A DNA stretch of 64,000 bases from an uncultured Algibacter sp. (GTDB lineage Bacteria; Bacteroidota; Bacteroidia; Flavobacteriales; Flavobacteriaceae), in assembly GCF_947487575.1 (NCBI RefSeq), contig NZ_CANKXG010000004.1, positions 1 through 64,000 on the forward strand. Reading direction: 5' to 3'. The position numbers and the translations under genes were made by a program. Shown here one piece after another: positions 3,846 to 48,634 of the stretch (within the stretch, counting starts at the first letter, position 1; every line of letters starts with the position of its first letter). The notes beneath the pieces are model-generated. The model was not told the origin of the DNA. It searched no databases and saw only the letters and a program-made list of their open reading frames with translations.

Positions 3846-3988
3846 GCGTTAGGGATTGCAGAGAAAAGCCCACAGCTTTGAAGCCTTAGCGCAGAAGCGA
3901 GGACTTGAAACGAAACATTTATGTTCATGAATTCAAAAATTTGAAATAGAAATCCATGAATAAAAGCCCGACCCTTGTGGTAACGCCC
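3846..3988 (-). repeat. Dispersed structured element, copy 1 (reads on minus strand)
   Basis: Read on the minus strand it begins GGGCGTTACC, contains the hairpin ACC-acaag-GGT, then GGTCGGGCTTTT, and ends GCAATCCCTAACGC. The ends can pair (GCGTTA with TAACGC). Its first ~90 bases are almost identical to copy 2 at 10369-10500, which lies in the opposite orientation. It fills the space between the convergent App1 and kinase genes. Confidence 0.85.
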
Positions 3989-3996
3989 AAAAAAAA

Positions 3997-4611
3997 TTAA
4001 AATAACCCGTTTATTTCAGCGTCAATAGTATTTATAACATCACCTAAATCCTCAGGATTATCCACAAAGTTTAAATTATCAACATCTATAATTAATAGTT
4101 TTCCTTTGTCATAACCATGAATCCAAGCTTCGTAACGCTCGTTTAGTCTACTTAAATAATCTATACTTATTGAGTTTTCATAGTCACGGCCACGTTTATG
4201 AATTTGAGCTACTAAATTAGGAATGGAGCTACGTAAATAAATTAAAACGTCTGGACCTTGCACTAAAGATTCCATTAAATCAAAAAGCGATTTATAGTTT
4301 TCAAAATCACGATTTGGCATTAAACCCATGGCATGCAAGTTGGGTGCAAAAATATGAGCATCCTCATAAATGGTTCTATCTTGAATAATATCTTTTCCGC
4401 TTTGACGAATTTGTAACACTTGACGAAATCTACTGTTTAAAAAGTAAACTTGTAAATTAAAACTCCAACGTTCCATTTGGGTATAAAAATCATCTAAATA
4501 TGGATTGTCTACTACATCTTCTAATTGCGCTTCCCAATTATAGTGCTTAGCTAATAATTTTGTGAGGGTTGTTTTTCCAGCGCCAATATTTCCGGCAATA
4601 GCAATATGCAT
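3997..4611 (-). CDS. Deoxynucleoside kinase (dCK/dGK family)
   Basis: 204 aa soluble kinase that phosphorylates deoxynucleosides for nucleotide salvage. The P-loop GNIGAGKTT occupies residues 7-15 and the DRT motif (family D/E-R-S) is at 78-80, followed by the YEDAHIF segment. An Arg-rich lid segment (HKRGRDYE) lies near residue 138. Length agrees with bacterial deoxyadenosine/deoxyguanosine kinases; which base is preferred cannot be read from the sequence. It starts four bases after the stop codon of the upstream 259-aa gene, so the two are probably cotranscribed. Confidence 0.9.
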   Translation of the reverse strand: MHIAIAGNIGAGKTTLTKLLAKHYNWEAQLEDVVDNPYLDDFYTQMERWSFNLQVYFLNSRFRQVLQIRQSGKDIIQDRTIYEDAHIFAPNLHAMGLMPNRDFENYKSLFDLMESLVQGPDVLIYLRSSIPNLVAQIHKRGRDYENSISIDYLSRLNERYEAWIHGYDKGKLLIIDVDNLNFVDNPEDLGDVINTIDAEINGLF

Positions 4612-4615
4612 AGTG

Positions 4616-5395
4616 TTAATTGATTTTTAGTTGAAATTGTTGTAAGATTTTATTGTTGTAAATATACAAGGTTTCATTGGTTACAAAAAACTGATTTATT
4701 AACAAATTGGATGTTGTTATTGGTGTTATTTTATAACTTTCTTTTTTTATGTAGAATAAAGAGTTTGCTTTTTTTAAGATGATGTTTTCATTACTTTCTA
4801 CCAATGTTGTAAAACCTGAATTTTTAACCTTTTTTAATAGGCTACCAAAATAATTATATGTGTATAAATATTTTTCTGTGAGTAACCAACAAAAGTTATA
4901 ATTGCTTTTTAAGTCTAGTACAGTACTTTGTACAGGTACAGTTTGGGCACGTGTAGTTCTGGTTTTGTAATCAAATAATTCTAATTTTTGTATGTCTTGA
5001 TTAAATATCCAAATAGTATTATCATGTCCGGTAGAGATATGCGAAACGTTTTTATATGACGAAAGTGTGTTAAAGTCTATTTTGAATATTTCAGCTAACC
5101 GATTGTCTAGTATAATTACCGTATTAAAATCTTTATAGAATAAATTAATTTTTAAGGGATTAAAAGTATTTGCAGAATATAAGGTTCCTAACTGTAAATT
5201 GCTATAGGTTATTGAGTTATCATTAGTTTTTTTGTAAATAACATTGTTTTTTAAGTAATAAGAAGTGCCAAAATCATCAACAGAAACCAGAGTGTCAGCG
5301 TTTAAGTTAAATTTTTTAATAAATTTTGTTTCAATAGATTCTTGAGCAAATATTGAAACCGAAAAAAAAAGTACGATGTAAAAAGTATATTTCAT
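4616..5395 (-). CDS. Secreted protein of unknown function, possible beta-propeller
   Basis: 259 aa with a clear signal peptide (hydrophobic residues 4-16, then AQES). The mature part has evenly spaced short segments such as NTIWIFNQDIQKLELFD that resemble blades of a beta-propeller, but I do not recognise a family. It is probably periplasmic or surface-associated. Only four bases separate its stop from the deoxynucleoside kinase start, suggesting one transcript. The 5' end lies 36 bases from the divergent tRNA-Tyr promoter. Confidence 0.75.
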   Translation of the reverse strand: MKYTFYIVLFFSVSIFAQESIETKFIKKFNLNADTLVSVDDFGTSYYLKNNVIYKKTNDNSITYSNLQLGTLYSANTFNPLKINLFYKDFNTVIILDNRLAEIFKIDFNTLSSYKNVSHISTGHDNTIWIFNQDIQKLELFDYKTRTTRAQTVPVQSTVLDLKSNYNFCWLLTEKYLYTYNYFGSLLKKVKNSGFTTLVESNENIILKKANSLFYIKKESYKITPITTSNLLINQFFVTNETLYIYNNKILQQFQLKIN

Positions 5396-5431
5396 TGCAG
5401 TTTGAAAAATACAAAAATCAAACCACTTTTA

Positions 5432-5463
5432 TTTGAAAATAAACAATAACAATAATATATTTG
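5432..5463 (+). promoter_or_regulatory. Bacteroidota-type promoter for tRNA-Tyr
   Basis: TTTG at 5432-5435, a 20-nt spacer, then TATATTTG at 5456-5463, matching the -33/-7 consensus TTTG...TAnnTTTG. The tRNA begins 12 bases after the -7 box. Confidence 0.75.
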
Positions 5464-5474
5464 CAGTCAGTTTT

Positions 5475-5556
<82 letters not shown>

Positions 5557-5565
5557 CTTAACTCG

Positions 5566-5597
5566 AAAAGTTTGCATGAGAATGCAAACTTTTTTTG
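5566..5597 (+). terminator. Intrinsic terminator of tRNA-Tyr
   Basis: A 12-bp stem (AAAAGTTTGCAT / ATGCAAACTTTT) with a GAGA loop, followed by a run of T. Confidence 0.9.
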
Positions 5598-5649
5598 TTT
5601 TAAAATGTTAAGCGAAATTTATTTCACTTAACATTTTAAAACAAAAAAA
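5590..5649. repeat. 23-bp perfect inverted repeat overlapping the tRNA terminator tail
   Basis: Positions 5590-5612 and 5627-5649 are exact inverted complements. A short inner stem GAAAT/ATTTC sits in the loop. The left arm uses the T-run of the preceding terminator. Function unknown; it could be a second terminator reading in either direction. Confidence 0.8.
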
Positions 5650-6101
5650 ATAAGTTGTAATAACAGCGCTGCTTTTCATTTTCAGGATAGGGAAATTAGG
5701 ATATTTAATCCTGTTTTCCTGATGGATAAATATAAAAAGAAAGCAAAATAAAAAGATTGCTTTTTATTGGGATTTCGTTTAACTAGGCGGATATGAAATC
5801 GTTTCAATGTTTTATATCTGACGTCAAACGAAGGTAGCTAATTTTTCTGATAAAGTTAAGCTTATTCACACTTTCAAAAAACGATAAATCGGTATCCAAA
5901 ACAAAGCATTCACGTTTATAAATGTTGCACTAGATTTGTGTTTACAGTTTGAATAATAAGTCCTTAATAATTTTTATCTCAGCAAAGTGTTTTAGCTTTA
6001 TTAATTAAAGGAGTACCAATACTTTTATTCAGTTAATTAGCATCTATATATAAATCATTCAGCAGATATATAGGTTTCATATTTAAATATCCTAAAAGTA
6101 A
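5650..6101. other. Gene-less stretch with serial hairpins
   Basis: About 450 bases without a credible reading frame. I see consecutive foldable segments: 5689-5720 (nested AGGGAAA/TTTTCCT and AGGAT/ATCCT), 5740-5763 (AAAGCAA/TTGCTTT) and 5774-5832 (TTCGTTT/AAACGAA enclosing GATAT/ATATC). The rest (5833-6101) is plain AT-rich DNA. It could hold a small RNA or the eroded remains of an integration at the tRNA; neither is proven. Confidence 0.45.
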
Positions 6102-6129
6102 AAAGGCTGAATTTTAAAATTCAACCTTT
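6102..6129 (-). terminator. Intrinsic terminator of the 60-aa gene
   Basis: On the minus strand AAAGG-T-TGAATTTT pairs with AAAATTCA-G-CCTTT; the one non-Watson-Crick position becomes a U-G wobble in the minus-strand RNA, and a T run follows. It lies just past the stop of the 60-aa gene. Confidence 0.75.
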
Positions 6130-6143
6130 AATTAATTTTTAGT

Positions 6144-6326
6144 TTAAGCAGAATGTGAATTAAACACTTCATAATCTGAATTAGAAAACACATAATCCTG
6201 ACTTTGTTTCATTTTGGTGTATAAGTTTTGATTAACTTTTACGGGAACTTTTAAATTTGGAAATTTAATTAAGTAATACTGCTTTTCTTTTCCTATTAGC
6301 TTTACTTTAGCGGGTTTTTTCTCCAT
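6144..6326 (-). CDS. Small basic protein of unknown function (60 aa)
   Basis: Lys-rich protein with a beta-like pattern (VKLIGKEKQYYLIKFPNL), no signal peptide and no recognised domain. Support for its being real: it stands alone in its interval, has a fitting minus-strand terminator right after the stop, and the ATG is preceded by an A/T-rich leader typical of this genome. It could be a small DNA- or RNA-associated protein, but nothing in the sequence shows it. Confidence 0.6.
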   Translation of the reverse strand: MEKKPAKVKLIGKEKQYYLIKFPNLKVPVKVNQNLYTKMKQSQDYVFSNSDYEVFNSHSA

Positions 6327-6434
6327 AATCTAAGATTTTTAAAAATTAAACTATAAAAAATATTTATTTAAAAAGTAAAGCAAAAAATATTCCAAAATTT
6401 AAACTGTCAGACTAATGAAAAATCGGCAGTTTTT

Positions 6435-7058
6435 CTACCCTTTCTTCTGCTTATTAATTTCGTCTTGTAATTGGCGTCTCACTTTTTGCTCACGTTCTAA
6501 AGCTGTTTTGCGGTGTTCGTTAAATTCTTCTTCAATTTCAGCTAAATTATGATTGGCTTTTCTAGTAATAGCATTACTATTTTTATATTTATAGATAAAG
6601 AAGATAAGTAGTGCCAATAACCCTGCAATAATAGACCACATAAGCACGTTGTAGCTGGTTTTACTCATTTGCATACCAAACAACGCCATATTGTTTTTTT
6701 CAGCATTAGTGGTGTCTAAATTAGTTTGGGTATTTGAAAGATTTGTTTTTAAATCTGAAATTTCCTTAGCCTGAGTTTTAACTACTGCTTGCGTTTCTGC
6801 TAAATTTTTATGTACGGTTTTTAACGAGTCTAAAGTATGCGCTCTTAAAGCTAGAAACATGCTACGCTTTACGGCCTCATAAGCTTGCCCATTAGTACCT
6901 TTAAAATTACCAGACTTTTTAAGAATATATTCGAATTGATTATCAATAGTGCCTTTGTATAAAGACAATTGATCGCTATCCTGTTTTGATTGAGATAATG
7001 AAGTTAAGCTAAATAAGCATGTAACGACTATTAAAATTATGGGTTTTATAGGATTCAT
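6435..7058 (-). CDS. Membrane-anchored coiled-coil protein, function unknown
   Basis: 207 aa. A signal peptide or anchor spans residues 5-20; a heptad-like segment at about 75-125 (repeated Thr, Asn and Leu) predicts a coiled coil; one strong membrane helix follows at about 138-160 (SIIAGLLALLIFFIYKY); the C-terminal 40 residues are highly charged and coiled-coil-like. Similar flavobacterial proteins have been labelled tRNA (guanine-N1)-methyltransferase, but no methyltransferase motif is present. Probably an envelope protein with periplasmic and cytoplasmic coiled coils. Confidence 0.75.
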   Translation of the reverse strand: MNPIKPIILIVVTCLFSLTSLSQSKQDSDQLSLYKGTIDNQFEYILKKSGNFKGTNGQAYEAVKRSMFLALRAHTLDSLKTVHKNLAETQAVVKTQAKEISDLKTNLSNTQTNLDTTNAEKNNMALFGMQMSKTSYNVLMWSIIAGLLALLIFFIYKYKNSNAITRKANHNLAEIEEEFNEHRKTALEREQKVRRQLQDEINKQKKG

Positions 7059-7130
7059 TCTAAATGAGTTTTTTGGTTTTATTTGGTTTGCGAATTTATA
7101 AAATATTGTTTATTAATTGATTATAAATCA

Positions 7131-7156
7131 TAAAAAAGCCTCATTATTATGAGGCT
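7131..7156 (-). terminator. Intrinsic terminator of the GAPDH gene
   Basis: 8-bp stem AGCCTCAT/ATGAGGCT (7137-7156) followed on the minus strand by six T. It lies about 50 bases after the GAPDH stop. Confidence 0.85.
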
Positions 7157-7208
7157 AATTTATATACGATTCAAATTAAAAAATAGATTTTGAATATAAA
7201 TTTATTTT

Positions 7209-8657
7209 TTAATAGTAGGTATAACGTCTAACTTTGGCGATGTATTTTGCTAACCTTATAACTTGGTGGCTATAACCATATTCATTATCGTACCAGATAT
7301 AGAGCAGGATGTTTTTTCCATCTTTACGTACTATAGTAGCCTTGCTATCGTAAATTGAAGGAGCCGAACTTCCAACAATATCACTAGATACCAACTCATC
7401 ACTCAATTCATATTTTATTTGCTCGACCAAGTCACCTTCTAGAGCATATTTCTTTAAAATAGTATTTACACCATTAAGTGATGTTTTGTTTTTTAATTCT
7501 AAGTTAAGAATAGCCAAAGATCCGTTTGGCACAGGCACACGAATAGCGTTTGATGTTAGCTTGCCATCCAAACTTGGTAATGCTTTTGAAACTGCACTTC
7601 CAGCTCCAGTTTCTGTGATTACCATATTTAAACCAGCGGCTCTACCTCGGCGGTATTTTTTATGGAAATTATCAACTAAATTTTGGTCGTTTGTATAAGC
7701 ATGAATCGTTTCTAAGTGGCCGCTTTCTACACCAAAAGAATCTTCCATAGCTTTTAAAACTGGTGTAATAGCATTTGTTGTACAAGAGGCTGCAGAAAAA
7801 ATATCTACCTTATCTGGACTATGCTCTCTATGGTTTACACCATATACAATATTTGGAATTTCTTTTCCAGGGGCTGTTAGTAAAACCTTATCTACACCTT
7901 TAGATTTTAAGTGTTTACTTAACGTAGCTTTGTCTCTAAAAGCACCAGTATTATCTATAACTAAGGCGTTATTTATATTGAATTTTGTATAATCAATCTC
8001 CTCAGGAGAATTAGCGGAAATAATATGAACTGTAGTACCATTTATAATCAATGCATTGTTTTTTGTATCAATAGAAACTGTACCTGGAAAATCGCCATGT
8101 ACAGAATCATTTCTAAGTAATGAAGCTCTTTTTTCTAATATTTGAGTATCAATAGTACCTCTTGTAACAATGGCTCTTAACCGTAATTGGCTGCCTTTTC
8201 CAGTTCTTACCATAATCTCTCTGGCTACTAATCGTCCAATTCTGCCAAAACCATAAAGCACAACGTCTTTTGGTTCTATATTCCCATTTTTACTAGCGTC
8301 TCTGAGTTTAGATGCTACAAAAGCTTTTGCATTATTATGTTTGTTGTCATCTAAGTGATACTCATAAGTAAGCTTTCCAATATCTAATTTTGCCGGAGGT
8401 ACATTAAGCGTTTTTATTGCTTGAGCTATTTCTACAGAGTCAAAAATTGAAATTGGTTTTTGAACAAATTTGCCTGCATAGTCGTGTAAATTTAAAATTT
8501 GGCTCACATTTCTATCAATTAACTGGTTTCTAAATAAAACCAATTCGATAGATTTATCATACCATAAATCACTTACAGTTTTAATAAATTCAACTGTCGC
8601 TTTTCTACGGTCGGCTTGAAAGGCTAATTCTTTTTCATAAGTTTTGTTAGAACCCAT
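7209..8657 (-). CDS. gap: Glyceraldehyde-3-phosphate dehydrogenase with ~130-residue N-terminal extension
   Basis: 482 aa, against about 335 for the usual enzyme. The NAD-binding GFGRIG is at residues 136-141, the catalytic Cys is C292 in SAASCTTN, and the general-base His is in HAYTND (H319). The catalytic part oxidises glyceraldehyde 3-phosphate to 1,3-bisphosphoglycerate. Residues 1-130 are extra, mostly helical and charged, with no domain I recognise; long GAPDHs of this kind occur across flavobacteria, so it is not an assembly fusion. A paralogue of normal length may exist elsewhere. The direction used in vivo (glycolysis or gluconeogenesis) and cofactor preference are not visible. It is monocistronic. 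Confidence 0.95.
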   Translation of the reverse strand: MGSNKTYEKELAFQADRRKATVEFIKTVSDLWYDKSIELVLFRNQLIDRNVSQILNLHDYAGKFVQKPISIFDSVEIAQAIKTLNVPPAKLDIGKLTYEYHLDDNKHNNAKAFVASKLRDASKNGNIEPKDVVLYGFGRIGRLVAREIMVRTGKGSQLRLRAIVTRGTIDTQILEKRASLLRNDSVHGDFPGTVSIDTKNNALIINGTTVHIISANSPEEIDYTKFNINNALVIDNTGAFRDKATLSKHLKSKGVDKVLLTAPGKEIPNIVYGVNHREHSPDKVDIFSAASCTTNAITPVLKAMEDSFGVESGHLETIHAYTNDQNLVDNFHKKYRRGRAAGLNMVITETGAGSAVSKALPSLDGKLTSNAIRVPVPNGSLAILNLELKNKTSLNGVNTILKKYALEGDLVEQIKYELSDELVSSDIVGSSAPSIYDSKATIVRKDGKNILLYIWYDNEYGYSHQVIRLAKYIAKVRRYTYY

Positions 8658-8688
8658 TGCTTAAAATAGTTTAGTTGTTAAATTTTAA

Positions 8689-8696
8689 CAAAAGTA
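8689..8696 (-). promoter_or_regulatory. Candidate -7 box for the GAPDH gene
   Basis: On the minus strand TACTTTTG matches TAnnTTTG and lies 31 bases before the start codon. No clear -33 TTTG is found at the right distance. Confidence 0.4.
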
Positions 8697-8738
8697 CCAT
8701 ATTTCAAACGTTTTCGTAAGCTATTTTAATAAAAAAAT

Positions 8739-8770
8739 AACCCTTCAAAAATTATATATTTTGAAGGGTT
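8739..8770 (-). terminator. Intrinsic terminator of the DegQ gene
   Basis: 12-bp stem AACCCTTCAAAA/TTTTGAAGGGTT followed on the minus strand by a T-rich run. It sits 23 bases after the protease stop. Confidence 0.88.
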
Positions 8771-8793
8771 AATTTAATAATAAAACGTATTGT

Positions 8794-10197
8794 TTATCTA
8801 AAATTATAACGCTCTAAATCACCATTTTTATTTATAAGTTCTAAGCGCAACGCTTCATAATTCGACTTATTTTTCAAAGCTTCTTGTACATCATTTATAT
8901 TTTTAACTTTCAAATCATTAATTGAAGTAATAATACAGCCTTCATGAATTCCGTTCTTTTTCCAATAATCGGCATATTTCGAATTCAGCTCTGTAATCAT
9001 AACGCCATACGTTACATTATATTTCTTAAGTTCAGAAGGTTTTGCATTTTTTATTCTGCCTACTAAAGGCATAGTAAATGTGTTATTTTTGGCAAGTTTA
9101 ACAGGTATATTTTTAATGTCACCATCTCTCGAAACTTTTAAATTAACAATATCATTAGGACGCTTAGCGCTTAAATGACCTGTTAAATCAGAAAATTTAG
9201 AAACTTTAATATTGTCTATTTCTTTAATAATATCACCTTTTTTAACACCCGCTTTTTCAGCTCCAGAATCTTCAACAACACTATCAATATAAACACCTTC
9301 TGTATCAGAAATTCCAATTTTTTTAGCCATAATACTATTAAGAGCACCTCCTTGAATTCCTAAAATGCCATTTTGCACATTGCCATACTCCATAATATCC
9401 TCAATTACTTTTCTAGCAATATTGCTAGGTACAGCAAAAGAATACCCTACATAAGAGCCTGTTTGTGATGTTATTGCGGTATTAATACCAACCAATTCAC
9501 CATTAGTATTAACTAACGCACCACCAGAATTCCCTGGGTTTACAGCCGCATCAGTTTGTATAAAAGATTGTCTGCTAGTACCCGATAAATCTCTGGATTT
9601 TGCACTTATAATACCAGCAGTAACGGTCGATGTTAAGTTAAAAGGATTCCCAACAGCCAAAACCCATTCGCCAATTTTAGCATTGTCAGAATCTGCAAAA
9701 GTTACAAACGGTAAGTCCTCATTAGCTTCAATTTTTAAAAGCGCAATATCCGTTTTTTCATCAGTGCCAATTAATTCAGCAACATAAGTTTTATTGTTAT
9801 TTAAAGTAACAGATAACTCATGCGCATTTTTAATAACATGGTTATTGGTTATGATATATCCATCAGCATTAATAATCACACCAGATCCAGTACCCATTTG
9901 TGCACGCTCAGAGCTCCTTCCAGAAAACAAATCTTGCAGCGAATATTGACCTGAACTTAGTGTTACATTTTTAACGTGTACAACTGCATTAACGGTGTTT
10001 TCAGCTGCAATAGTAAAATCTATGGTGTTTTCAGCCTTAAATAGAGTATTCATATTGCTGGTGGGCAAAAATGATGCGTTTGCGCTTTCAGCCGCCACCA
10101 AAATAGGTTTATCTTCCTCTAAAAATAGTTTGTAGGTTCCTAATGTAAAAATACCGCCTAAAGCCGAAACCAATACTAATGTCAAAATCTTTTTCAT
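8794..10197 (-). CDS. degQ: Periplasmic serine protease/chaperone of the DegP-DegQ (HtrA) family
   Basis: 467 aa. An N-terminal hydrophobic segment (residues 4-25) exports or anchors it. The trypsin-like domain carries the full triad: H120 (ITNNHVI), D150 (TDIALLKI) and S224 (NPGNSGGALV). Two PDZ domains follow, at about 275-365 and 380-467, as in Do-type proteases. It degrades or refolds damaged envelope proteins. It is monocistronic with its own terminator. I use degQ loosely; DegP, DegQ and DegS types cannot be separated here, though two PDZ domains argue against DegS. Confidence 0.95.
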   Translation of the reverse strand: MKKILTLVLVSALGGIFTLGTYKLFLEEDKPILVAAESANASFLPTSNMNTLFKAENTIDFTIAAENTVNAVVHVKNVTLSSGQYSLQDLFSGRSSERAQMGTGSGVIINADGYIITNNHVIKNAHELSVTLNNNKTYVAELIGTDEKTDIALLKIEANEDLPFVTFADSDNAKIGEWVLAVGNPFNLTSTVTAGIISAKSRDLSGTSRQSFIQTDAAVNPGNSGGALVNTNGELVGINTAITSQTGSYVGYSFAVPSNIARKVIEDIMEYGNVQNGILGIQGGALNSIMAKKIGISDTEGVYIDSVVEDSGAEKAGVKKGDIIKEIDNIKVSKFSDLTGHLSAKRPNDIVNLKVSRDGDIKNIPVKLAKNNTFTMPLVGRIKNAKPSELKKYNVTYGVMITELNSKYADYWKKNGIHEGCIITSINDLKVKNINDVQEALKNKSNYEALRLELINKNGDLERYNFR

Positions 10198-10224
10198 AAT
10201 TTTCAGTTTAAGTTTAAAATAATT

Positions 10225-10285
10225 CCTTAAGTATTTATACTTAAGGTTTCCTTTGAATTTGTCATTCCCGTGTAAACGGGAATCT
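10225..10285. repeat. Two short hairpins upstream of degQ, one a GTCATTCC-type repeat
   Basis: 10225-10246 is a 9-bp stem CCTTAAGTA/TACTTAAGG. At 10261-10285, GTCATTCCCG...CGGGAATCT forms ATTCCCG/CGGGAAT; a related sequence (GTCATTCCTGCGAAGGC, then AAGAATCT) is at 48674-48699. This looks like a family of small dispersed palindromes. Confidence 0.65.
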
Positions 10286-10368
10286 ATTAACGATTAAAAT
10301 TAAATATTTATTGAATCAAAAATTCAACTTTAACGACTATTTAACAATCCTTGTATCATTAACAATTT

Positions 10369-10500
10369 GGGCGTTACCGCAAGGGTCGGGCTTTTATTCA
10401 TGGATTTCTATTTCAAATTTTTGAATTCATGAACATAAATGTTTCGTTACAAGTCCTCGCTCGTGCCTCTCTGTGGGCTTTCCTCTGCAATCCCTAACGC
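10369..10500 (+). repeat. Dispersed structured element, copy 2
   Basis: Begins GGGCGTTACC-gcaag-GGTCGGGCTTTT and ends CTGCAATCCCTAACGC, with terminal pairing GCGTTA/TAACGC. The first ~90 bases nearly match copy 1 (3846-3988) in inverted orientation, including the internal hairpin built on TTCATG...CATGAA. It lies between the divergent degQ and dapF genes. Confidence 0.88.
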
Positions 10501-10588
10501 ACTTCGTTGTAAACATCTGCAAAAAAAGTAAGCTTTTTTCTACCTGCCAAAATTATCGCTAAGAATCAAAAAATTTAAATCACTTCTT

Positions 10589-10596
10589 TATCTTTG
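10589..10596 (+). promoter_or_regulatory. -7 box of the dapF operon
   Basis: TATCTTTG matches TAnnTTTG. The ATG at 10606 is only 10 bases downstream, so the transcript should have almost no leader. This argues against the in-frame TTG at 10594, which overlaps the box. Confidence 0.6.
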
Positions 10597-10605
10597 CAAC
10601 ATATT

Positions 10606-15828: not shown

Positions 15829-17256
15829 TTAAACAGAAAGTTTTTTACCGATATCGTCAACGTATTTTTTAAATTGTTTATCTGTTGATGATAGATTGTC
15901 AACTGTTTTGCAAGCATGTAAAACGGTTGCATGGTCACGTTTTCCTATTTGAGAACCAATACTAGCAAGTGATGCTTTGGTGAATTTTTTAGCAAAAAAC
16001 ATAGCTAATTGACGGGCTTGTACAATATGGCGTTTTCTAGTTTTAGATTGTAAAGTATCTACATCCATTTGGAAATAGTCAGATACAACTTTTTGAATGT
16101 AATCTATAGAAACTTCACGTTTTGTGTTCTTTACAAACTTCTCTACTATAATTCGAGCTAAATCAATTGTAATTTCTTTTTTATTGAAAGACGATTGCGC
16201 AATCAATGATATAATTGCTCCTTCTAGCTCTCTAACATTAGTTTTAATGTTTTTTGCAACATATTCAATTATATCATCAGGCATTTCAACACCATCGCGA
16301 TATAATTTATTTTTTAAAATTGAAACACGAGTTTCAAAATCTGGATTTTGTAATTCAGCAGATAATCCCCATTTAAAGCGTGATAATAGACGTTGTTCAA
16401 TATCTTGCATATCAACCGGTGCTTTATCACTGGTTAAAATAACTTGCTTACCATTTTGGTGTAAATGATTGAATATATGAAAGAATACATCTTGTGTTCC
16501 TGTTTTTCCAGATAAGAATTGAACATCGTCAATAATAAGAACATCAATAATTTGATAAAAATGAATAAAATCATTTCTATTATTCTTTTTTACGGCATCA
16601 ATATATTGTTGCGTAAACTTCTCAGCGGAAATATATAAAACTGTTTTTTCTGGATATTTATCTTTAATGTCAACACCAATAGCATGTGCTAAATGTGTTT
16701 TTCCTAAACCAACACCTCCAAAAATTAATAACGGGTTAAAAGATGTACCTCCAGGTTTGTTGGCAACAGCTAACCCTGCACTTCGTGCTAATCTATTAGA
16801 GTCGCCTTCTAAGAAGTTTTCAAAGCTATAGTTGGGATTAAGTTGAGATTCAATCTTTACGTTTCTAATACCAGGAATAACAAATGGATTTCTAAGTTCA
16901 GGACTCTTATTGTTTAAAGGAACATCAACATCTTGTGATTTTAAAGCACCTCTATTAGCACTTGGGATTTTTTCAGTAAATGGTTGCTTGTTACCATACG
17001 TGTTTTCCATTTTTATAATGTAAACAAGTCTGGCGGTTTCCCCTAATTCTTTAGTGAGTGAAACTTTAAGAATTTTAACATAATGCTCTTCAAGCCACTC
17101 GTAAAAGAATTTGCTAGGCACTTGAATACTAAGAGCGGTATCAGTTAATTTAACTGCTTTTATTGGTTCAAACCAAGTCTTATATGCTTGCGGTTGAATA
17201 TTATCTTTTATAAACCCTAGACAATTATCCCATACCGATTGCGCAGTTACACTCAT
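15829..17256 (-). CDS. dnaA: Chromosomal replication initiator DnaA
   Basis: 475 aa. Domain I at residues 1-85; a linker to about 135; the AAA+ domain with Walker A GGVGLGKTHL (K186) and Walker B VLIIDDVQF; and the C-terminal DNA-binding domain IV with RKRHIVQARQLAMFFAKK and the signature IGKRDHATVLHACK. Binds DnaA boxes and opens oriC. No box cluster is visible next to the gene here, which fits Bacteroidota where oriC is often elsewhere. Probably heads the operon with the phosphatase and RsmI-like genes. Confidence 0.98.
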   Translation of the reverse strand: MSVTAQSVWDNCLGFIKDNIQPQAYKTWFEPIKAVKLTDTALSIQVPSKFFYEWLEEHYVKILKVSLTKELGETARLVYIIKMENTYGNKQPFTEKIPSANRGALKSQDVDVPLNNKSPELRNPFVIPGIRNVKIESQLNPNYSFENFLEGDSNRLARSAGLAVANKPGGTSFNPLLIFGGVGLGKTHLAHAIGVDIKDKYPEKTVLYISAEKFTQQYIDAVKKNNRNDFIHFYQIIDVLIIDDVQFLSGKTGTQDVFFHIFNHLHQNGKQVILTSDKAPVDMQDIEQRLLSRFKWGLSAELQNPDFETRVSILKNKLYRDGVEMPDDIIEYVAKNIKTNVRELEGAIISLIAQSSFNKKEITIDLARIIVEKFVKNTKREVSIDYIQKVVSDYFQMDVDTLQSKTRKRHIVQARQLAMFFAKKFTKASLASIGSQIGKRDHATVLHACKTVDNLSSTDKQFKKYVDDIGKKLSV

Positions 17257-35592: not shown

Positions 35593-36548
35593 TGGAAAAA
35601 CTAAGAGCAGATATCTTAACGTCGTTTAAAAATAGAAAAATTAATGTATTCATTTTATTTCTGTTTTTTGCATTTGTTATTTTAATGTTTACAAAGCTTT
35701 CAAAAGAGTACACTAATACTATTGCTTTTGATGTTGAAAAGCTAAACATACCTCAAGAGAATATTATTTTAAACGATTCAACAAAAATTAATATCACATT
35801 AAAAACTCATGGTTTTAGGTGGTTAAAGTATTATTTCTCTAAGCCAAAAATCAAAATAGACTTTAATGAAGACGTTCATAAAAAAGAAGGTGTTTTTGTT
35901 TGGAACAAATCAAAAGCCTATTTGAATAACATACAATTTGATAAAGCAGTAGAAATTCTCAATATCTCACCAGACCCAATAACCTTTAGATATGGCGTTA
36001 ATATGGTTAAAACAGTTCCTGTTTTATTTAATACAGATGTTAGTTTTAGCCCTGGTTTTAGTACAACTAGCGCTATAATTTCTGAACCAGATTCAGTAAC
36101 TGTCGTGGGTCCAAATATATTGGTTTCAGAAATTGAGTCTTTAGAATTGGAGGACGTTACTTTTAAAGATATTAAATCAGATATACTTGAAAAAGTAAAT
36201 ATTAAGTTACCTCAAAATGTATCTGATTTAAAGTTTTCAACGAATCAAGTAGTTTTAAAAGCTAAAGTTGAAAAATTCACGGAGGGTACACTTAAAATTC
36301 CAGTTTCAATAATTAATGCGCCTAAAAATACAAATTTAAAGTACTTTCCTAGGATGGTAAGCGTTTCATATTATGTCAGTTTAAGTAACTTTAATGCTAT
36401 AAAAGCAAATGATTTTAAAGTAGTTTGCGATTTTAATAAAACAAATGAAAATCAGTCTTTTTTAATTCCAGAATTGGTTAAAACTCCAGGCTTAGTGCAG
36501 CATTCTAAAATTAGTCAACAACGTATAGAATTTATAATTACAAAATGA
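35592..36548 (+). CDS. YbbR-like domain protein
   Basis: 318 aa with one N-terminal membrane helix (residues 17-35) and a periplasmic body of YbbR-like beta repeats (PVLFNTDVSFSPGF, SEPDSVTVVGP). In other phyla YbbR is the regulator of the diadenylate cyclase CdaA, but no cyclase gene is next to it here. Overlaps the glycosyltransferase by one base and coaE by four. Confidence 0.85.
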   Translation: MEKLRADILTSFKNRKINVFILFLFFAFVILMFTKLSKEYTNTIAFDVEKLNIPQENIILNDSTKINITLKTHGFRWLKYYFSKPKIKIDFNEDVHKKEGVFVWNKSKAYLNNIQFDKAVEILNISPDPITFRYGVNMVKTVPVLFNTDVSFSPGFSTTSAIISEPDSVTVVGPNILVSEIESLELEDVTFKDIKSDILEKVNIKLPQNVSDLKFSTNQVVLKAKVEKFTEGTLKIPVSIINAPKNTNLKYFPRMVSVSYYVSLSNFNAIKANDFKVVCDFNKTNENQSFLIPELVKTPGLVQHSKISQQRIEFIITK

Positions 36549-39505: not shown

Positions 39506-39533
39506 AAAATCCTGTTTCATGCAGGATTTTTTT
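39506..39533 (+). terminator. Intrinsic terminator of the two-component operon
   Basis: 9-bp stem AAAATCCTG/CAGGATTTT, then a T run; ends six bases before dispersed element copy 3. Confidence 0.88.
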
Positions 39534-39538
39534 GTTTT

Positions 39539-39631
39539 GGGCGTTACCCCGAAAAGGGGTCGGGCTTTCACTACTCAATCTTTTTGCGAAAAGCAAAAAG
39601 GATTTCAAACATGCCGTTCAATCCCTAACGC
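39539..39631 (+). repeat. Dispersed structured element, copy 3 (short form)
   Basis: Begins GGGCGTTACCCC-gaaa-AGGGGTCGGGCTTT: the internal hairpin is lengthened to ACCCC/GGGGT. A second hairpin CTTTTTGC/GCAAAAAG follows and the end is CAATCCCTAACGC, pairing with GCGTTA at the start. It lacks the long variable segment of copies 1 and 2. Confidence 0.85.
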
Positions 39632-39799
39632 GGGTTGGTTTACTAAAGTTGGTGCTTATTTAAAGTTGTTTTCGTACCTACTAAATACATAGTTTAGAGC
39701 TTAGAAATTTGAATAAGAATTTACAACCTTTTATGTGTTATATACGCATGTTACGGGCAGTTGTTTTTTTCCAATTCGAGATTAAAAAACTTCTACTAT
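39632..39799. other. Intergenic stretch, left side of an accessory patch
   Basis: No gene. It holds TTACGGGCAGTTG at 39751-39763, which resembles the reverse complement of TATCCCGTAAATA-type sequence at 41119-41131 on the far side of the two lipoprotein genes; this could mark the edges of an inserted block. Confidence 0.35.
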
Positions 39800-40510: not shown

Positions 40511-40519
40511 ATTTTATTT

Positions 40520-41811: not shown

Positions 41812-41915
41812 GTATTTGTTTTAGACTTGATGGTTCGTGGCTCGATTGAATCCTTTTTGGAATTTTGTTTTTTTATTTTGGAATTTATTAGCTCGCAGAC
41901 GTGTTCAGAGCTAAT

Positions 41916-42254: not shown

Positions 42255-42257
42255 TGT

Positions 42258-43514: not shown

Positions 43515-45436
43515 TTAAAGAATTTTAAGATGAGCATTTCAATAATCAATAACGCTAATGCAAAAATAACAAACCATTTCCATAGGGCGTTAACTTTTGT
43601 GTCACTTTTTATGGTATCGAAAATTTCGGTAATTGAATCACTAACGGTTACATGCTCTATATTAGAAAGATCTCTGTAGGCTAAATGACTTTCAGATCTG
43701 TTATAATTGTAACTCAGGTTTTTTATAGTATCATCTTTGTTAATTAAAGCATAAGTCCCAGCACTAGAGGGTTCTTCGGAAGTATTTACAACCACTTTAT
43801 TATTAAAGTATTGTTGCTTGGGTATAATATTTATGTCGTTTTTTTTAAGCGATAAAACAGCATCTTGTTGCATTTTTGTATCAACATCAAATGTGTTTTC
43901 TTTTCCAATGGTATAATATAATTCAGGAATTTTAAAACTTTGCTTCGCTATATTGTAAAGTGTTGGAACAATTAAAGGTGAATTTTTAAAACTAGAATTA
44001 TTGCTGTTTAAAGGGGAGGTGAAAACAAAGGCATTTTTATATTGCCCTAAAAAGAGTTTGCCGTCTTCAAAATTTAATACAGATGAAAGATTGTTAGTGT
44101 TTATGTTATAAAAACTATTAACCTTCGGGTATTGGAAATTTTTAACTTGTTTTTCAAAAACACCATTGTTATATAATGGATGCGAATAGTTTATGGTAGT
44201 TATGCGCTTTTCTGAGTTAATTAAACCATTAAAAACACTATTATAATTAGCTAGTAATTGATTGTAAGATGAGAGATTGCTTGCTTTTGAAGGTATGACA
44301 ATTATTGAGCCACCTTGATTTGTAAATTGCTTTAAAGCTGAACTTAATGCAATAGGAATGTTTTTTAATTCATTTAAAATAATAAGGTGTTGCGAATCAA
44401 TTAAATTATAACTTAAATCGCGTTCTGAAGTGGCACTATAATTAAATTCAGATGGGTTATAAATGCGTTTTAAGAATGAATCATCCTGTCCGTTGATGCT
44501 AAAAACATTAATTTTTGAAGCTTGATTGATATTGAAATAAAGCGTATTATCAAATTGTAAACTAGAATCGTTAATAGTTATTTTTCCATTTATAATTTGA
44601 CTAATAGGAAGCGAAAAAGTGGCTTCGGCATCCTGCTTAATTGCAACTGAAGTTTTTGCAATAAGCTTATCATTATTGAATAATGAAACGGGTAAGTTTT
44701 CAACTGAACTTCCACTGTTTTTTAGTATAACCTTTAGATCTACCGATGTAGGGTTGGTTTCAGAAATGTATAGGCTATCTATTGTAATATTGTTTTTGCT
44801 TAAAGGGCTTAATTTTACAAAATTCAAGTTGGTTAATGAGTCTTTATTGATGTTTAAAGTTGATTCATATTCCTGAAAATCAGATATTAAAATTATATTA
44901 TTTAAAGTTTTAGTTTTGTTTGTTAAAAAAGCTTTGCTTTTCAATAAAGCCGCCTCAATTGTTAATTGATTTGAGGTGTAATCAAGTTTTAATAAGTCGT
45001 TTTTAATAGCTTTTATTGTGGTATTTTTAAAAACATTATCGTTTGTGAAAATCGATATATTTTCATCTTCTGGTACATTTGATATGATGTCTTGAACCGC
45101 ACGTTTTAGTAATTCTCCATGTGTGCCTTTAGCTTGCATGCTAAACGAATTATCTAAATAAATTACCGTTTCTTTTTCAGTTTTAAAGCTATTTGATTTT
45201 GAAGTAAAAGACTGTGCAAATGCAAAAACAAGGGCGGCTAGTAATAATAATCTAGTGAGGAGAATTAACCATTTTTTTATTTGCGAACTTTTACGAGTTT
45301 GTAATGTTGCTTCTTTTAGAAATGCCACATTAGTAAAATCAACTTTTTGAAACTTACGAAGCTTAAATAAATGAACAATAATTGGGATAAGCAGTAAAAA
45401 TAATGCGTAAAGAAGTTCTGGGTGTTTAAACTGCAT
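43511..45436 (-). CDS. BatA-type membrane protein with vWA-like domain
   Basis: 641 aa. The N-terminal double-membrane segment (HPELLYALFLLLIPIIVHLF at residues 5-24 and a helix at 56-76) is the BatA/aerotolerance N-terminal domain. A von Willebrand A-like domain follows from about 88 (TVIYLDNSFSMQAKG, a degenerate MIDAS motif with DNSFS for DxSxS); a large periplasmic part and a final membrane helix end the protein. Bat proteins are linked to stress tolerance but their reaction is unknown. Overlaps the dihydroorotase-like gene (ATGA). Confidence 0.88.
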   Translation of the reverse strand: MQFKHPELLYALFLLLIPIIVHLFKLRKFQKVDFTNVAFLKEATLQTRKSSQIKKWLILLTRLLLLAALVFAFAQSFTSKSNSFKTEKETVIYLDNSFSMQAKGTHGELLKRAVQDIISNVPEDENISIFTNDNVFKNTTIKAIKNDLLKLDYTSNQLTIEAALLKSKAFLTNKTKTLNNIILISDFQEYESTLNINKDSLTNLNFVKLSPLSKNNITIDSLYISETNPTSVDLKVILKNSGSSVENLPVSLFNNDKLIAKTSVAIKQDAEATFSLPISQIINGKITINDSSLQFDNTLYFNINQASKINVFSINGQDDSFLKRIYNPSEFNYSATSERDLSYNLIDSQHLIILNELKNIPIALSSALKQFTNQGGSIIVIPSKASNLSSYNQLLANYNSVFNGLINSEKRITTINYSHPLYNNGVFEKQVKNFQYPKVNSFYNINTNNLSSVLNFEDGKLFLGQYKNAFVFTSPLNSNNSSFKNSPLIVPTLYNIAKQSFKIPELYYTIGKENTFDVDTKMQQDAVLSLKKNDINIIPKQQYFNNKVVVNTSEEPSSAGTYALINKDDTIKNLSYNYNRSESHLAYRDLSNIEHVTVSDSITEIFDTIKSDTKVNALWKWFVIFALALLIIEMLILKFFK

Positions 45437-45474
45437 GTTGTTTTAGATTGAGCAAATCTATATAATTTTTTTCA

Positions 45475-46482
45475 TTAACAAAAGAAAACATAATCTTCAA
45501 TAGACTTAAGACTTAATTTATTAAGATAATCTCTTATTTCTATTTGTGCTTCTTTATTGGCAACCGTAATAATACTCTGTGTATTTTCAATAGTCTCTAA
45601 ATCCTTAAAAGGTCTCAGAACTTTGCCATAAATATCTTTTCCTATCTTTTTTGGGTTATCGCAAATCCACTCAAAAGCAATATGCTTTTCAATAAGCGAT
45701 TTAGCAATAAACTTCCCTTTATTGCCTGCACCCCAAACCACAAGTGTTTTTTCAGAATTATAGTCTAAGTCTAAAAAATAGTCCAATTTCAGAGGGATAA
45801 AATGATTTTCAGTATAATGAGCATCAGTTCTAGAGGTGCGATGGCTATAATCTCTCCAATTATGTACAACAACATCACAAGGAATGCATTTAAAACCATG
45901 CTTATAAAATCGAAATGCTAAATCATAGTCCTCTGGATACCTATTGGGGTTAAAAGCATCACAAGTTAATAAATCGTCTTTATGTAGCATCCAGCAAGGC
46001 GAAGGGATAACACACTCTTTATATATTTCAGAATAATTGGAACCGTTTTTAGTTAATCCATTCAACCAAACCTCATAGCTTTTGTAGCCCTCCTTTATGC
46101 CTTCTTCTGAAAAATAATGCACCATTCCAACCGCAAGGTGTCCTTTTCCGTAGTTCATTAAATTACTAGCTAAAACTTCTAGTTTGTTGGGCAACATAAC
46201 ATCGTCACTATCCATTCTAGTTATTAGCTCGCCTGAGCTTTTTTTAAAGGCTAATTGCAATGCATCAATAATACCACTTCCAGAATTTTTAATTAGTTTA
46301 ATCCTGTCATCATTTTTGGCAAAATACTCAACTATCGAAAAACTAGCATCAATTGAATTATCATCAACAATAAGCAGTTCCCAATTGGTATAAGTTTGGT
46401 TTATAATTGATTCTAAACAAGCGCCAATATATGCTTCGGTGTTCTTAAAAGGAATCAATATGCTTACTAATGGGCTTTGCAT
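45475..46482 (-). CDS. Family 2 glycosyltransferase fused to a Rossmann-like C-terminal domain
   Basis: 335 aa. GT-A domain at residues 1-235: VSILIPFKNTEAYIG, VDDNSID, the metal-binding DSDD near residue 93, and the acceptor motif RYPEDYDLAFR near 180. The last ~90 residues form an extra domain beginning VVWGAGNKGKFIAKSL, a GxGxxG dinucleotide- or nucleotide-sugar-binding turn, ending near FC. No membrane helix. The fusion may join sugar transfer with recognition of a nucleotide-linked substrate. Confidence 0.88.
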   Translation of the reverse strand: MQSPLVSILIPFKNTEAYIGACLESIINQTYTNWELLIVDDNSIDASFSIVEYFAKNDDRIKLIKNSGSGIIDALQLAFKKSSGELITRMDSDDVMLPNKLEVLASNLMNYGKGHLAVGMVHYFSEEGIKEGYKSYEVWLNGLTKNGSNYSEIYKECVIPSPCWMLHKDDLLTCDAFNPNRYPEDYDLAFRFYKHGFKCIPCDVVVHNWRDYSHRTSRTDAHYTENHFIPLKLDYFLDLDYNSEKTLVVWGAGNKGKFIAKSLIEKHIAFEWICDNPKKIGKDIYGKVLRPFKDLETIENTQSIITVANKEAQIEIRDYLNKLSLKSIEDYVFFC

Positions 46483-46569
46483 TCTGCGAATTTAACAAAA
46501 CCTTAAGAAAGCAACGTGTAACAATGTGGTAATTTGCGCGTCAATTAAAAAATTATAAAAACCATTTGG

Positions 46570-48459
46570 ATGTATACAAAAACACTATTCTCGTTATTTG
46601 CTGGTGCTGTATTAGTTGGCTGTGGGTCTACTAAAAATATTAGTAACGATTTAGCAACAAGCTTACCTATAGAAACCTCAATAAATCTTTCTAATATTTC
46701 TGAAGATAAAGCTCCTGTAACAATTAACCCAGGACGTTTTACTGTAGAAACTGTAACATATAGATTACCTAGAGTTATACAAGGTACATACTCTGTGAGC
46801 GACTTTGGTAAGTATATTGACGACTTTAAAGCCTTTGATTATGAAGGAAATGAAATGACTGTAAATAAATCAGATACCAACTCATGGACCATTGCAAATG
46901 CTAAGCAGTTAGACAAAATAACGTATTTAGTTAATGATACTTATGATATTGAAGTACAGGGTGGCATTGGAAAAGACACCCCTTTTTCTCCAGCAGGAAC
47001 CAATTTAGAACCCAACAATTATGTATTAAACCTACATGGTTTTATTGGTTATTTTGATTCGTTAAAAAATAATCAGTATAAATTAGATGTTACTGCGGCT
47101 GCAGATTTTGCTCGTACTTCGGCCTTACAAAATGTAAGTTCAAAAACTACAGAAGATGAAAAATTAACTACTACAAGTTATTTTGCACCTAGATATTTCG
47201 ATATTACAGATAACCCAATGATGTATGGTAATTTGGATGTAGAAGAGTTTCAAGTCGGCGACATCAAAATTGTATTAAGTGTTTACTCACCAAACAAAGT
47301 ACATACCGCAAAATCACTTAAAGATATTGTTCTTAAGATGATGGTAGCACAAAAAGCGTATCTAGGTGATGTTAATACAACACCGCGATATGATATTTAT
47401 TTGTATTTATCAGAAGGCAAAGCAGAGTCTCCAAAAGGTTTCGGTGCTTTAGAACATCATACATCTACTGTTGTTGTATTGCCAGAGTCTATGGATGAAG
47501 CAAGAATAGCATCAACCATGACAGATGTTGTCTCGCACGAGTTTTTTCATATTGTAACACCATTAAGCGTACATTCAGAAGATGTACATTATTTCGATTA
47601 TAACAATCCAACATTTTCTAAGCATTTATGGATGTATGAAGGGGTTACAGAGTATTTTGCAACCCTATTTCAAGTAGACCAAGGCTTAGTTGAAGAGGCA
47701 GATTTTTATAAGAAAATAATGAGTAAAATAGATGCCTCAAAAAAATTAGACGACGCTATGAGTTTTACCATTATGAGCGAAAATGTCTTAAAAGCACCTT
47801 ATAAAGACCAATATTTGAATGTGTACCAAAAAGGTGCGTTAATTGGGATGTGTATTGATATTTTAATACGCGAAGAAAGTAATGGTAACAGAGGTATTCT
47901 TTCTTTAATGAAAGAATTGTCAAATAAATACGGAAAAAACAAACCCTTTAATGACGATAAGTTGATTGAAGAAATTACAGCAATGACTTATCCATCTGTA
48001 GGCGAATTTTTAAACACACACGTAGTAGGGGATATTCCAATCAATTACAACACATTCTTCGAAAAAGCAGGTTTGGAAATTGGCAAATCTAAAATAGAAG
48101 CAAATTATATTTTAATGAATGGCGCTCCAATTGTTAGTGGAGACCCAACTAAAGGCATCTTTTTTATAGATACTGTTTTAGAAAATAGTTTCTGGAAAGA
48201 GCAAGGCGCGCAACCTAACGACATTATAAAATCGATTGATGGAGAAGAGGTAACACTTCAAAACGCTAATAAAATCTTAGGTACAGTTTTTGGTTGGAAA
48301 CCAGGAAGAGATATCGAGGTTAAATTGGAAAGAGACGGTAAAGAGGTTATCATTAAAACTACTACAACCCAAGGATATACCTTAGGTAAGGCGTTAAAAC
48401 AAAAAGAAAACACCACGGCTGCTCAAAATGCATTGCGAAACGCTTGGCTAAAAGGATAG
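46570..48459 (+). CDS. M61-family metallopeptidase lipoprotein with PDZ domain
   Basis: 629 aa. A lipoprotein signal ends at LVGC (C18). The zinc site is H323-E-F-F-H327 in VSHEFFHIVTP, followed by a WMYEGVTEYFA segment holding the third ligand Glu, as in the glycyl-aminopeptidase-like M61 family. A PDZ domain lies at about 525-600 (FWKEQGAQPNDIIKSIDGEE). It acts in the periplasm or on the outer membrane. Followed by an intrinsic terminator. Confidence 0.94.
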   Translation: MYTKTLFSLFAGAVLVGCGSTKNISNDLATSLPIETSINLSNISEDKAPVTINPGRFTVETVTYRLPRVIQGTYSVSDFGKYIDDFKAFDYEGNEMTVNKSDTNSWTIANAKQLDKITYLVNDTYDIEVQGGIGKDTPFSPAGTNLEPNNYVLNLHGFIGYFDSLKNNQYKLDVTAAADFARTSALQNVSSKTTEDEKLTTTSYFAPRYFDITDNPMMYGNLDVEEFQVGDIKIVLSVYSPNKVHTAKSLKDIVLKMMVAQKAYLGDVNTTPRYDIYLYLSEGKAESPKGFGALEHHTSTVVVLPESMDEARIASTMTDVVSHEFFHIVTPLSVHSEDVHYFDYNNPTFSKHLWMYEGVTEYFATLFQVDQGLVEEADFYKKIMSKIDASKKLDDAMSFTIMSENVLKAPYKDQYLNVYQKGALIGMCIDILIREESNGNRGILSLMKELSNKYGKNKPFNDDKLIEEITAMTYPSVGEFLNTHVVGDIPINYNTFFEKAGLEIGKSKIEANYILMNGAPIVSGDPTKGIFFIDTVLENSFWKEQGAQPNDIIKSIDGEEVTLQNANKILGTVFGWKPGRDIEVKLERDGKEVIIKTTTTQGYTLGKALKQKENTTAAQNALRNAWLKG

Positions 48460-48489
48460 AGTAATTTTAGAATAAAGAATTTAAGATTA

Positions 48490-48528
48490 ACGATTGGTGA
48501 ATTTAAAATTTGTCAATCGTTTTTTTTT
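48490..48528 (+). terminator. Intrinsic terminator of the M61 peptidase gene
   Basis: ACGATTG/CAATCGT stem with an inner AATTT/AAATT pairing, followed by eight T; it ends two bases before dispersed element copy 4. Confidence 0.85.
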
Positions 48529-48530
48529 AT

Positions 48531-48634
48531 GGCATTACCTATATCCTGAATTTAGTTCAGGATATAGGTCGGGCTTTGCGTTACAAGTCCTCGTTCGTGC
48601 CTCACTGTGGGCTTTCCACTGCAATCCCTAATGC
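48531..48634 (+). repeat. Dispersed structured element, copy 4 (compensated ends)
   Basis: Begins GGCATTACC and ends CAATCCCTAATGC: the terminal pair is GCATTA/TAATGC, against GCGTTA/TAACGC in the other copies, a compensatory change. The internal hairpin is extended to ACCTATATCCTGAA/TTCAGGATATAGGT. The segment from GTTACAAGTCCTCG to the end matches copy 2 closely. Confidence 0.88.

Follow-up and report, generated by a model that had tools for sequence, protein, structure and literature searches.

What is a repeat that stands four times between the genes of one stretch of flavobacterial DNA, keeping its base pairs while its letters change? The stretch is positions 1 to 64,000 of contig NZ_CANKXG010000004.1 from an uncultured Algibacter sp. 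(assembly GCF_947487575.1; all 64,000 nt are called the window below), and a sequence-only reading of it had proposed a dispersed element with conserved folding, either REP-like (repetitive extragenic palindromic) and moved by a transposase acting elsewhere, or a structured RNA. Our analysis favours, with a probability of about 0.6, a non-autonomous, foldable intergenic DNA element of Bacteroidota, akin to BOX elements and miniature inverted-repeat transposable elements (MITEs), that provides the three-way-junction shell of the repeats catalogued by Rfam as Flavo-1 (RF01705). Its pairing is under selection, its build is modular, its arms differ in kind at sites shared between species, and it has spread over different replicons. 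From these observations we infer mobility by means of an enzyme and exchange of arms by recombination, and gene context together with a published transcriptome speaks for DNA rather than RNA as the folded molecule.

A folding repeat under selection for pairing

The parsed copies begin with an AT-rich head, mostly ending in TTTGG, followed by helix P1 (6 pairs), helix P2 (CC...GG plus a variable stem), a linker C and the P3 base, whose 5 pairs are broken by a C.T mismatch present in all 71 aligned copies. The length of 92 parsed copies is 43-312 nt, usually 75-200 nt, and comprises P1, P2 and mostly a P3 arm. A single strand of the repeat can fold into a three-armed shape, a three-way junction. 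The copies in the window and the features next to them are as follows.

3846..3986, minus strand: copy 1, P1 to P1', with GCGTTA at 3981-3986 and TAACGC at 3846-3851; covariance model 64.5 bits, E 1.8e-16; P2 tip ACAAG, extra TTCATG...CATGAA module, P3 arm of type A
10371..10500, plus strand: copy 2, with GCGTTA at 10371-10376 and TAACGC at 10495-10500; covariance model 60.8 bits, E 2e-15; P2 tip GCAAG, extra TTCATG...CATGAA module, P3 arm of type A
39541..39631, plus strand: copy 3, with GCGTTA at 39541-39546 and TAACGC at 39626-39631; covariance model 86.5 bits, E 7.5e-23; P2 ACCCC/GGGGT, P3 arm of type B
48532..48634, plus strand: copy 4, with GCATTA at 48532-48537 and TAATGC at 48629-48634 (compensated end pair); covariance model 78.2 bits, E 1.8e-20; 14-bp P2 stem, P3 arm of type A
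39558..39568, plus strand: core GGTCGGGCTTT of copy 3, made up of the P2 end, the linker C and the 5' side of the P3 base with the conserved C.T mismatch
39506..39536, approximate ends, plus strand: terminator-like hairpin and T-run directly before copy 3, seen by eye
48488..48528, approximate ends, plus strand: terminator-like hairpin and T-run directly before copy 4, seen by eye

The core GGTCGGGCTTT has 4 exact matches in the window, and 4 further matches with 2 mismatches are at chance level. A covariance model built from 71 copies, including those at 39541 and 48532 and excluding those at 3846 and 10371 with the extra module, finds exactly 4 copies there (E 7.5e-23 to 2e-15), the next match having an E of 0.27. 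Both searches agree with the four places first noticed. All four copies are intergenic, lying between the listed open reading frames (ORFs) of the window; the one at 3846 is about 10 nt behind a stop codon, and those at 39541 and 48532 directly follow a hairpin and T-run by eye, in line with the earlier claim of terminators. The complementary ends, GCGTTA/TAACGC in three copies and GCATTA/TAATGC in the fourth, are directly visible, as is the P2 hairpin, which is kept despite its varied sequence (5-nt loop, ACCCC/GGGGT, 14-bp stem).

To assess covariation we used an alignment of 71 copies, hand-picked from 85 short ones among 119, all preselected for pairing. Both sides have changed in 7 of the 13 pairs (32 cells), a level reached by 0 of 500 shuffles. 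Paired cells make up 99.3%, a value inflated by the preselection, and at most 51% after the partner is shifted by one column. The scan supplying these copies gave 81 matches in a reversed control and was therefore filtered. Using anchoring that is independent of pairing, 451 of 492 end positions pair in 82 of 98 copies, and 0 of 20,000 permutations gave as high a number; for the other 16 copies no anchor was obtained, and some anchors fell wrongly within B arms. Among 245 scanned elements, 9 of which were later filtered out, the fully compensated P1 types are GCGTGA/TCACGC (11), GCGCTA/TAGCGC (10), GCATTA/TAATGC (5) and the rarer GCGCAA/TTGCGC (4), GCGTAA/TTACGC (2) and GGGTTA/TAACCC (2), with GCGTC/GACGC as an additional P1 variant in a phage copy (L449). 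The P3 base likewise varies, as GGGCTT/AATCCC, GGGCTA/TATCCC, AGGCTT/AATCCT and GCGCTA/TATCGC. Covariation in the alignment, the pairing-independent test and the many compensated changes in P1 and P3 base all bear out the suggestion that pairing is under selection.

Folding energy is less telling. Folded as a single sequence, copy 3 does no better than its shuffles (z -0.63), whether treated as RNA or as DNA, and the three-way junction is not its minimum. The unconstrained minimum closes P1 in 85/94 copies on the top strand and in 77/94 on the bottom strand. As fold energy is unconvincing alone, the structure rests on covariation. A 5-pair hairpin behind P1' (GCRRR...YYYGC) occurs in 34 of 235 elements, 18.9 being expected, a small excess that we do not claim.

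Exchangeable arms and shared sites

The element is modular: its outer shell, P1 and P2, carries interchangeable P3 arms, which had escaped the sequence-only reading. Among 92 clean copies the arm is of type A in 36, B in 16, C in 21, D in 12 and of other types in 7, and the extra TTCATG...CATGAA module occurs, among 100 copies, with arms of type A (3), B (1), C (1) and D (1). There is no association between P2 type and P3 type (permutation p 0.36). P2 tips are variable between copies, and other palindromic repeats, e.g. CCCGATAGCTATCGGG, are found in the loops of P2 or P3 tips. The tips of type-A arms are species-specific (Fisher p 1e-4 on the compared tip classes): in the genome holding the window (G000) 24/40 are of the CCTNCG type and 2/40 of the CCGATAGC type, compared with 1/10 and 5/10 on one contig of a congeneric species (G150). 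Exchangeable inner modules, a conserved shell and dispersed sites, the marks of a BOX-like element, are all present. The literature on dispersed folded repeats in flavobacteria or Bacteroidetes and on Flavo-1 that we searched describes no such modular element, and the papers found to contain the letters GGTCGGGCTTT are unrelated by title.

Sites were compared between three congeneric species, using contigs G000:C4 (304 kb), G150:C5 (320 kb) and G044:C3 (366 kb). The 92 directed comparisons gave 40 filled sites, 17 'empty' ones, at least 4 of them occupied by variants outside the core pattern, and 35 unmapped. The filled comparisons represent 22 distinct pairs at 13 sites, each common to at least 2 of the 3 species, and orientation is identical in 22/22. 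By hand check, the P3 arms differ at 9/13 sites and in 13/22 pairs, or 14/22 when the extra module is counted. Where G000:104042 corresponds to G150:152649, the rare P1 GCGCAA/TTGCGC is common to both species and the arms are A versus B; at site 197904 the flanks are conserved to the element edge in all three species and the insides are different. Pairs from other genera (L176/L177, L207/L219) also combine flanks conserved to the edge with different arms. Some sites keep their arm, such as one with type D in L158, L224 and L240, at which L218 has type C. The plain reading is that copies stay in place and exchange arms. The alternative is that insertion recurred at one spot and in one orientation, which fits the shared rare P1 and the flanks less well.

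Sites without the element were also found: for G044:279611 in both G000 and G150, for G000:119073 in G044, and for two of the window copies, 39541 in G155 and 3846 in G150. The extra sequence in the insertions G044:279611, G000:119073 and G150:91710 begins about 15 nt before P1 and reaches 70-90 nt behind it.

Three shells consist of P1, P2 and P3 base without an arm (L044 near 1500; G155 at the site of window copy 48532; G151 at joined position 35602), and these are possibly intermediates of arm exchange, or deletion products. Within the P3 loop of type-C arms (L176, L009, L014 and others) lies a dispersed palindrome similar to GTCATTGCGAGGAGYGAGCGACGTGGCAATCTG. In 7 of 100 copies of the own genome (L012, L016, L017, L018, L020, L060, L066) a second repeat stands about 50-100 nt beyond P1'; it contains GGTTCGTTTAACG or a near-identical sequence, and no occurrence of it was detected in the 304 kb of contig C4.

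Spread over genomes, plasmids and phages

The own genome (3.5 Mb, 35 contigs) contains 98 exact cores, 45 on one strand and 53 on the other, against 0 for the reversed pattern. Relaxing the last TT of the core to WT gives 123, and with this relaxed core nine other genomes of the genus contain 37 to 138 copies. In 149 genomes of the family the 11-mer count ranges from 0 to 107, and about 108 genomes have 0 to 3, counts that include chance matches. Across the phylum the covariance model is positive in 46/296 genomes (up to 12 candidates scored in each): 24 in the same family, own genome included, 2 in the order, 14 in the class and 6 beyond. An 18-mer of the element has, among the matches listed for named genomes, hits in Algibacter, Tamlana, Mariniflexile, Flavobacterium, Polaribacter, Aquimarina, Bizionia, Wocania and others. 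The 98 cores against 0 reversed, the empty sites, and the plasmid and phage copies described below agree with the earlier view of a dispersed, mobile-like element. One genome from another family of the phylum (G265) has a lone copy (L344) at 85.9 bits as its sole match, which points to either a recent transfer or contamination. A match in Bacillus (L192) was rejected, the surrounding sequence being without structure.

Using a typed 88-nt query, we found matches in 76 of 72,556 plasmid records, all from the gut bacteria Bacteroides, Phocaeicola, Parabacteroides or Butyricimonas, at 80-90% identity in 40 records and 60-80% in 36. Plasmid p5482 carries a pair of copies, both on one strand, and the copy in B. 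fragilis Q1F2-p2 abuts the stop codon of a recombinase gene. The surroundings of p5482 copy 18634 share sequence with 55 records, of which 16 span the whole query; the shared block ends at the element's 3' end (query 577) in 26, starts just behind the element (582/583) in 10 and starts further on in 3. The alignments place the mosaic joints of these plasmids at the 3' end of the element. Many of the plasmids are near-identical, and the 55 records therefore contain few independent events. The left part of L539 is as in p5482 and its right part as in L540, which suggests recombination between the elements of two plasmids.

The phages of INPHARED gave no match. Pattern scans of the predicted phages in IMG/VR returned 75, 18 and 34 stretches; keeping the 11 of the 75 with a recognisable right end and adding 28 new ones, we examined 39 contigs. 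A cleanly bounded element is present in 24 of them and, by script, absent from 4, the rest being misbounded or false. In 11 of the 24 the element lies 1-27 nt behind an ORF of one terminase-like protein family (521-579 aa, or 303 aa where cut by the contig end), and in 13 it lies elsewhere. After merging L386/L411, L404/L355 and L448/L452, the 11 contigs represent 8 lineages that are pairwise 20-43% identical. Three of these (L365, L440, L454) match phrog_2, the terminase large subunit (TerL), and the other five do not; the Terminase_6N score of L365 is below the Pfam cut-off, and the family profile, run against the PDB, gives no more than an insignificant terminase match (E 0.3). Among the best 80 of 481 TerL relatives, 7 carry the element (E <=5e-4), always right behind terL. 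Since 3 of the 7 are input phages, the element accompanies 4 of 77 other relatives, in 3 distinct sequences (L471 = L472), and 73/77 gave no match; at least 5 of the 80 (L470, L476, L488, L516, L525) end at the stop codon or less than about 50 nt from it and cannot show it. A search for this TerL family in 10 genomes of the genus, made without a positive control, found none.

A 6.4-kb microvirus-like contig (L410, IMGVR_UViG_3300000304_000116) encodes a replication protein and a Phage_F capsid. It has one complete copy at about 4342-4418, some 300 nt past the capsid gene; this copy is inverted relative to the genes and overlaps a 119-aa ORF. Relatives of the L410 capsid protein, like those of three single TerL proteins, are too few to assess conservation of the place.

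Flavo-1 and the nature of the element

The P3 arm and Flavo-1, a match that could not be known from the sequence alone, are alike in fold and sequence. The Rfam model gives two matches in the window, both below its gathering score of 42 bits, and the other two copies are not among the matches.

39554..39640, minus strand: Flavo-1 (RF01705) match over the P3 arm of copy 3, 23.8 bits
48563..48636, minus strand: Flavo-1 (RF01705) match over the arm of copy 4, 34.6 bits

The own genome has 100 Flavo-1 matches at E <=10 and 22 over the gathering score, some of which lie inside the same shell (L047 59.1 bits, L014 50.9, L023 50.6); of 20 loci with copies, 8 gave any match at E <=1. In the family, matches occur unevenly in 96/149 genomes (up to 29 scored candidates listed for each). 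The arm aligns to model positions 1-76 when read on the complement of the shell strand used here, and the model differs from the element in containing the arm only, without P1 and P2. Other above-threshold copies have a different shell, approximately TTTAGGAGCTATTTCC(N)GCT...ATC(N')GGGCTAGGG, with the same arm kinds and mismatch, for example L125-L128 and L134 of 20 stretches. In genome G127 such an arm, with GGGCTA behind it, is present in 19/20 stretches, the GCTATTTCC part not being recognisable in 3 of the 19 (L279, L291, L292); the one stretch outside the 19 (L275) is cut by the contig end. Flavo-1 as a family therefore resembles a collection of shells and arms, and the Rfam model covers a single one of the arms. 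G127 also has many high-scoring canonical Flavo-1 copies (L276-L294, up to 82 bits), perhaps a recent expansion, and is well suited to fixing the ends of the element precisely.

In the parts of the publications used here, Flavo-1 is tabulated as a Bacteroidetes motif (PMC2864571) and is among the most abundant catalogued small-RNA (sRNA) families, its function column being empty (PMC9029176). We consider it unlikely that Flavo-1 is a non-coding RNA or an mRNA-end element with one transcribed strand and many dispersed functional copies. The covariation, the conserved C.T mismatch and the listing of RF01705 as an sRNA gene would suit such an RNA, as would the position of 31 of 55 copies no more than 16 nt from the stop codon of the preceding gene on the 5' side; on the 3' side a stop codon is as near in 2/52, and the two distances agree with an element whose 5' edge is sharp and which has a 3' tail. 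Using ORFs from a script rather than a gene caller, we found that 6/100 own copies overlap an ORF of at least 80 aa. The 99 copies with two flanking ORFs stand between tandem (33 and 30), convergent (22) and divergent (14) genes, with a gene end on the 5' side of 55/99 and on the 3' side of 52/99, so that orientation to genes is near-random. Against an RNA there is also the opposite strand modelled by Rfam, a copy number between 0 and more than 100 within the family, the z of copy 3, and a transcriptome (PMC9723704) whose passages on Flavo-1 report matches that are sense or antisense indistinctly and in many cases outside transcribed regions. The near-random context and the want of a consistent strand in this RNA-seq fit mobile or recombining DNA better than an RNA gene. 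Hence the structured-RNA proposal of the sequence-only reading survives insofar as the long arm is catalogued Flavo-1, and is weakened by the near absence of strand preference in the gene context of the own genome and by the cited transcriptome passages.

Its other proposal, a REP-type element mobilised by a resident Y1 transposase (RAYT, REP-associated tyrosine transposase, or TnpA-REP), appears highly improbable. High-copy folded intergenic repeats would be expected of it, and Y1_Tnp (PF01797) matches, some inside very long ORFs, occur in 8/10 genomes of the genus and 59/149 of the family; the one Y1 gene of the own genome is about 1.5 kb from a copy. Yet G150 has 126 copies and no PF01797 match. 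Of the 19 family genomes holding 13 or more cores, 7 likewise gave no match, G140 at just 75% completeness among them. We reject a resident Y1 transposase as the motor in these genomes. A core lies within about 1.5 kb at the own-genome locus only, 12 of 13 Y1 loci being without one, and copies show no replichore bias. The likeness to REPs and REPINs (REP doublets) with RAYTs is that of folded intergenic high-copy repeats. As described in the parts of PMC3733652 used here, REPs are palindromes of 20-40 bp that mostly bear a GTAG or CGTC tag, whereas the element is three-armed, usually far longer than such a palindrome, and does not depend on a Y1 gene.

It is also rather doubtful that the repeat is a replication or packaging signal of mobile replicons, folding as single-stranded DNA (ssDNA) at an initiation, cut or pac-like site, with the chromosomal copies as dispersed descendants. 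Such a signal, presumably recognised by a terminase, relaxase or primosome, would explain several facts of position: the place behind a TerL-like gene in 8 lineages and 4/77 further relatives, the Bacteroides plasmids with two same-strand copies on p5482, the microvirus-like contig and the mosaic joints at the 3' end. It is opposed by the 73/77 relatives without a match, the 13/24 clean phage contigs with the element elsewhere, about 100 chromosomal copies, and the failure to find these TerL proteins in 10 genus genomes in the search without a positive control; moreover, the gap behind terL may simply be a tolerated place. A narrower version, of similarly low or marginally lower probability, has an ssDNA signal of Bacteroidota phages and plasmids, placed next to the terminase gene in highly divergent phages, whose descendants, the chromosomal 'Flavo-1' copies, would persist through being carried along by these replicons and would have their arms rewritten by exchange between copies; if true, what is accepted as an sRNA family would in reality be a replicon signal that has become dispersed.

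A mobile or recombining, MITE- or BOX-like DNA element thus remains our preferred explanation, and several observations weigh against it. The folded strand is not settled by G.T (13) versus A.C (7) in 245 rows, and the enforced fold is cheaper on the top strand in 43/94 copies and on the bottom strand in 50/94, which is even. No motor enzyme was found, Y1_Tnp being the sole enzyme family examined, and it fails. On one 3.9-Mb Wocania scaffold, a small sample, 33 copies are split 14 versus 19 between replichores (dnaA at 345 kb, origin assumed at dnaA, terminus opposite), so that lagging-strand insertion as in IS200/IS605 is not supported. In formal terms the data do not distinguish arm exchange from renewed insertion at one spot. 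The three insertions show no clear target duplication or exact junction at ~80% identity, the empty sites being too diverged for junctions to be fixed. Finally, the element recurs right behind terL in phages that diverged deeply, which suggests that it does more than act as a parasite; this place is the most surprising and least explained fact. A dnaA-like ORF in the window (15829-17256, minus strand) is 95% identical to its sole match in the scaffold of the replichore test, and the window may lie near the replication origin.

In the mechanism we propose, new copies would occasionally be inserted near gene ends by a putative enzyme acting in trans that recognises the folded strand, and such recognition would select for pairing. 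Inserted copies would then stay for long times, while their arms could be swapped between copies by recombination or gene conversion, with the conserved P1, P2 and P3-base blocks acting as homologous ends. According to the parts of PMC3049150 used here, about half of BOX insertions are present in all strains compared, and S. suis has two BOX shells, boxA/C and boxE/F, with the same inner modules. BOX of streptococci and our element are both modular foldable intergenic repeats, and the two S. suis shells can be likened to the P1/P2 and canonical Flavo-1 shells with their same P3 arm kinds. BOX varies by the number of tandem boxB units and the element by one arm of different kind; the likeness is meant as one of kind. 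With MITEs, as the same source describes them, the element shares small size, non-autonomy, an intergenic place and strong base pairing; it differs in its inverted ends of just 6 nt, in that no target duplication was seen, and in having no known parent transposon, for which no systematic search was made.

On these data, what Rfam models as Flavo-1 is a single arm, on the other strand, belonging to a larger folded element, and one and the same site can bear different kinds of arm in different species. Should our explanation hold, much of what is annotated as RNA in Bacteroidota would be mobile or recombining DNA. The place behind terL offers a concrete system for functional tests, and whole-arm replacement in fixed repeats of about 100 nt would, in our judgement, be an unusual case of concerted evolution in bacteria.

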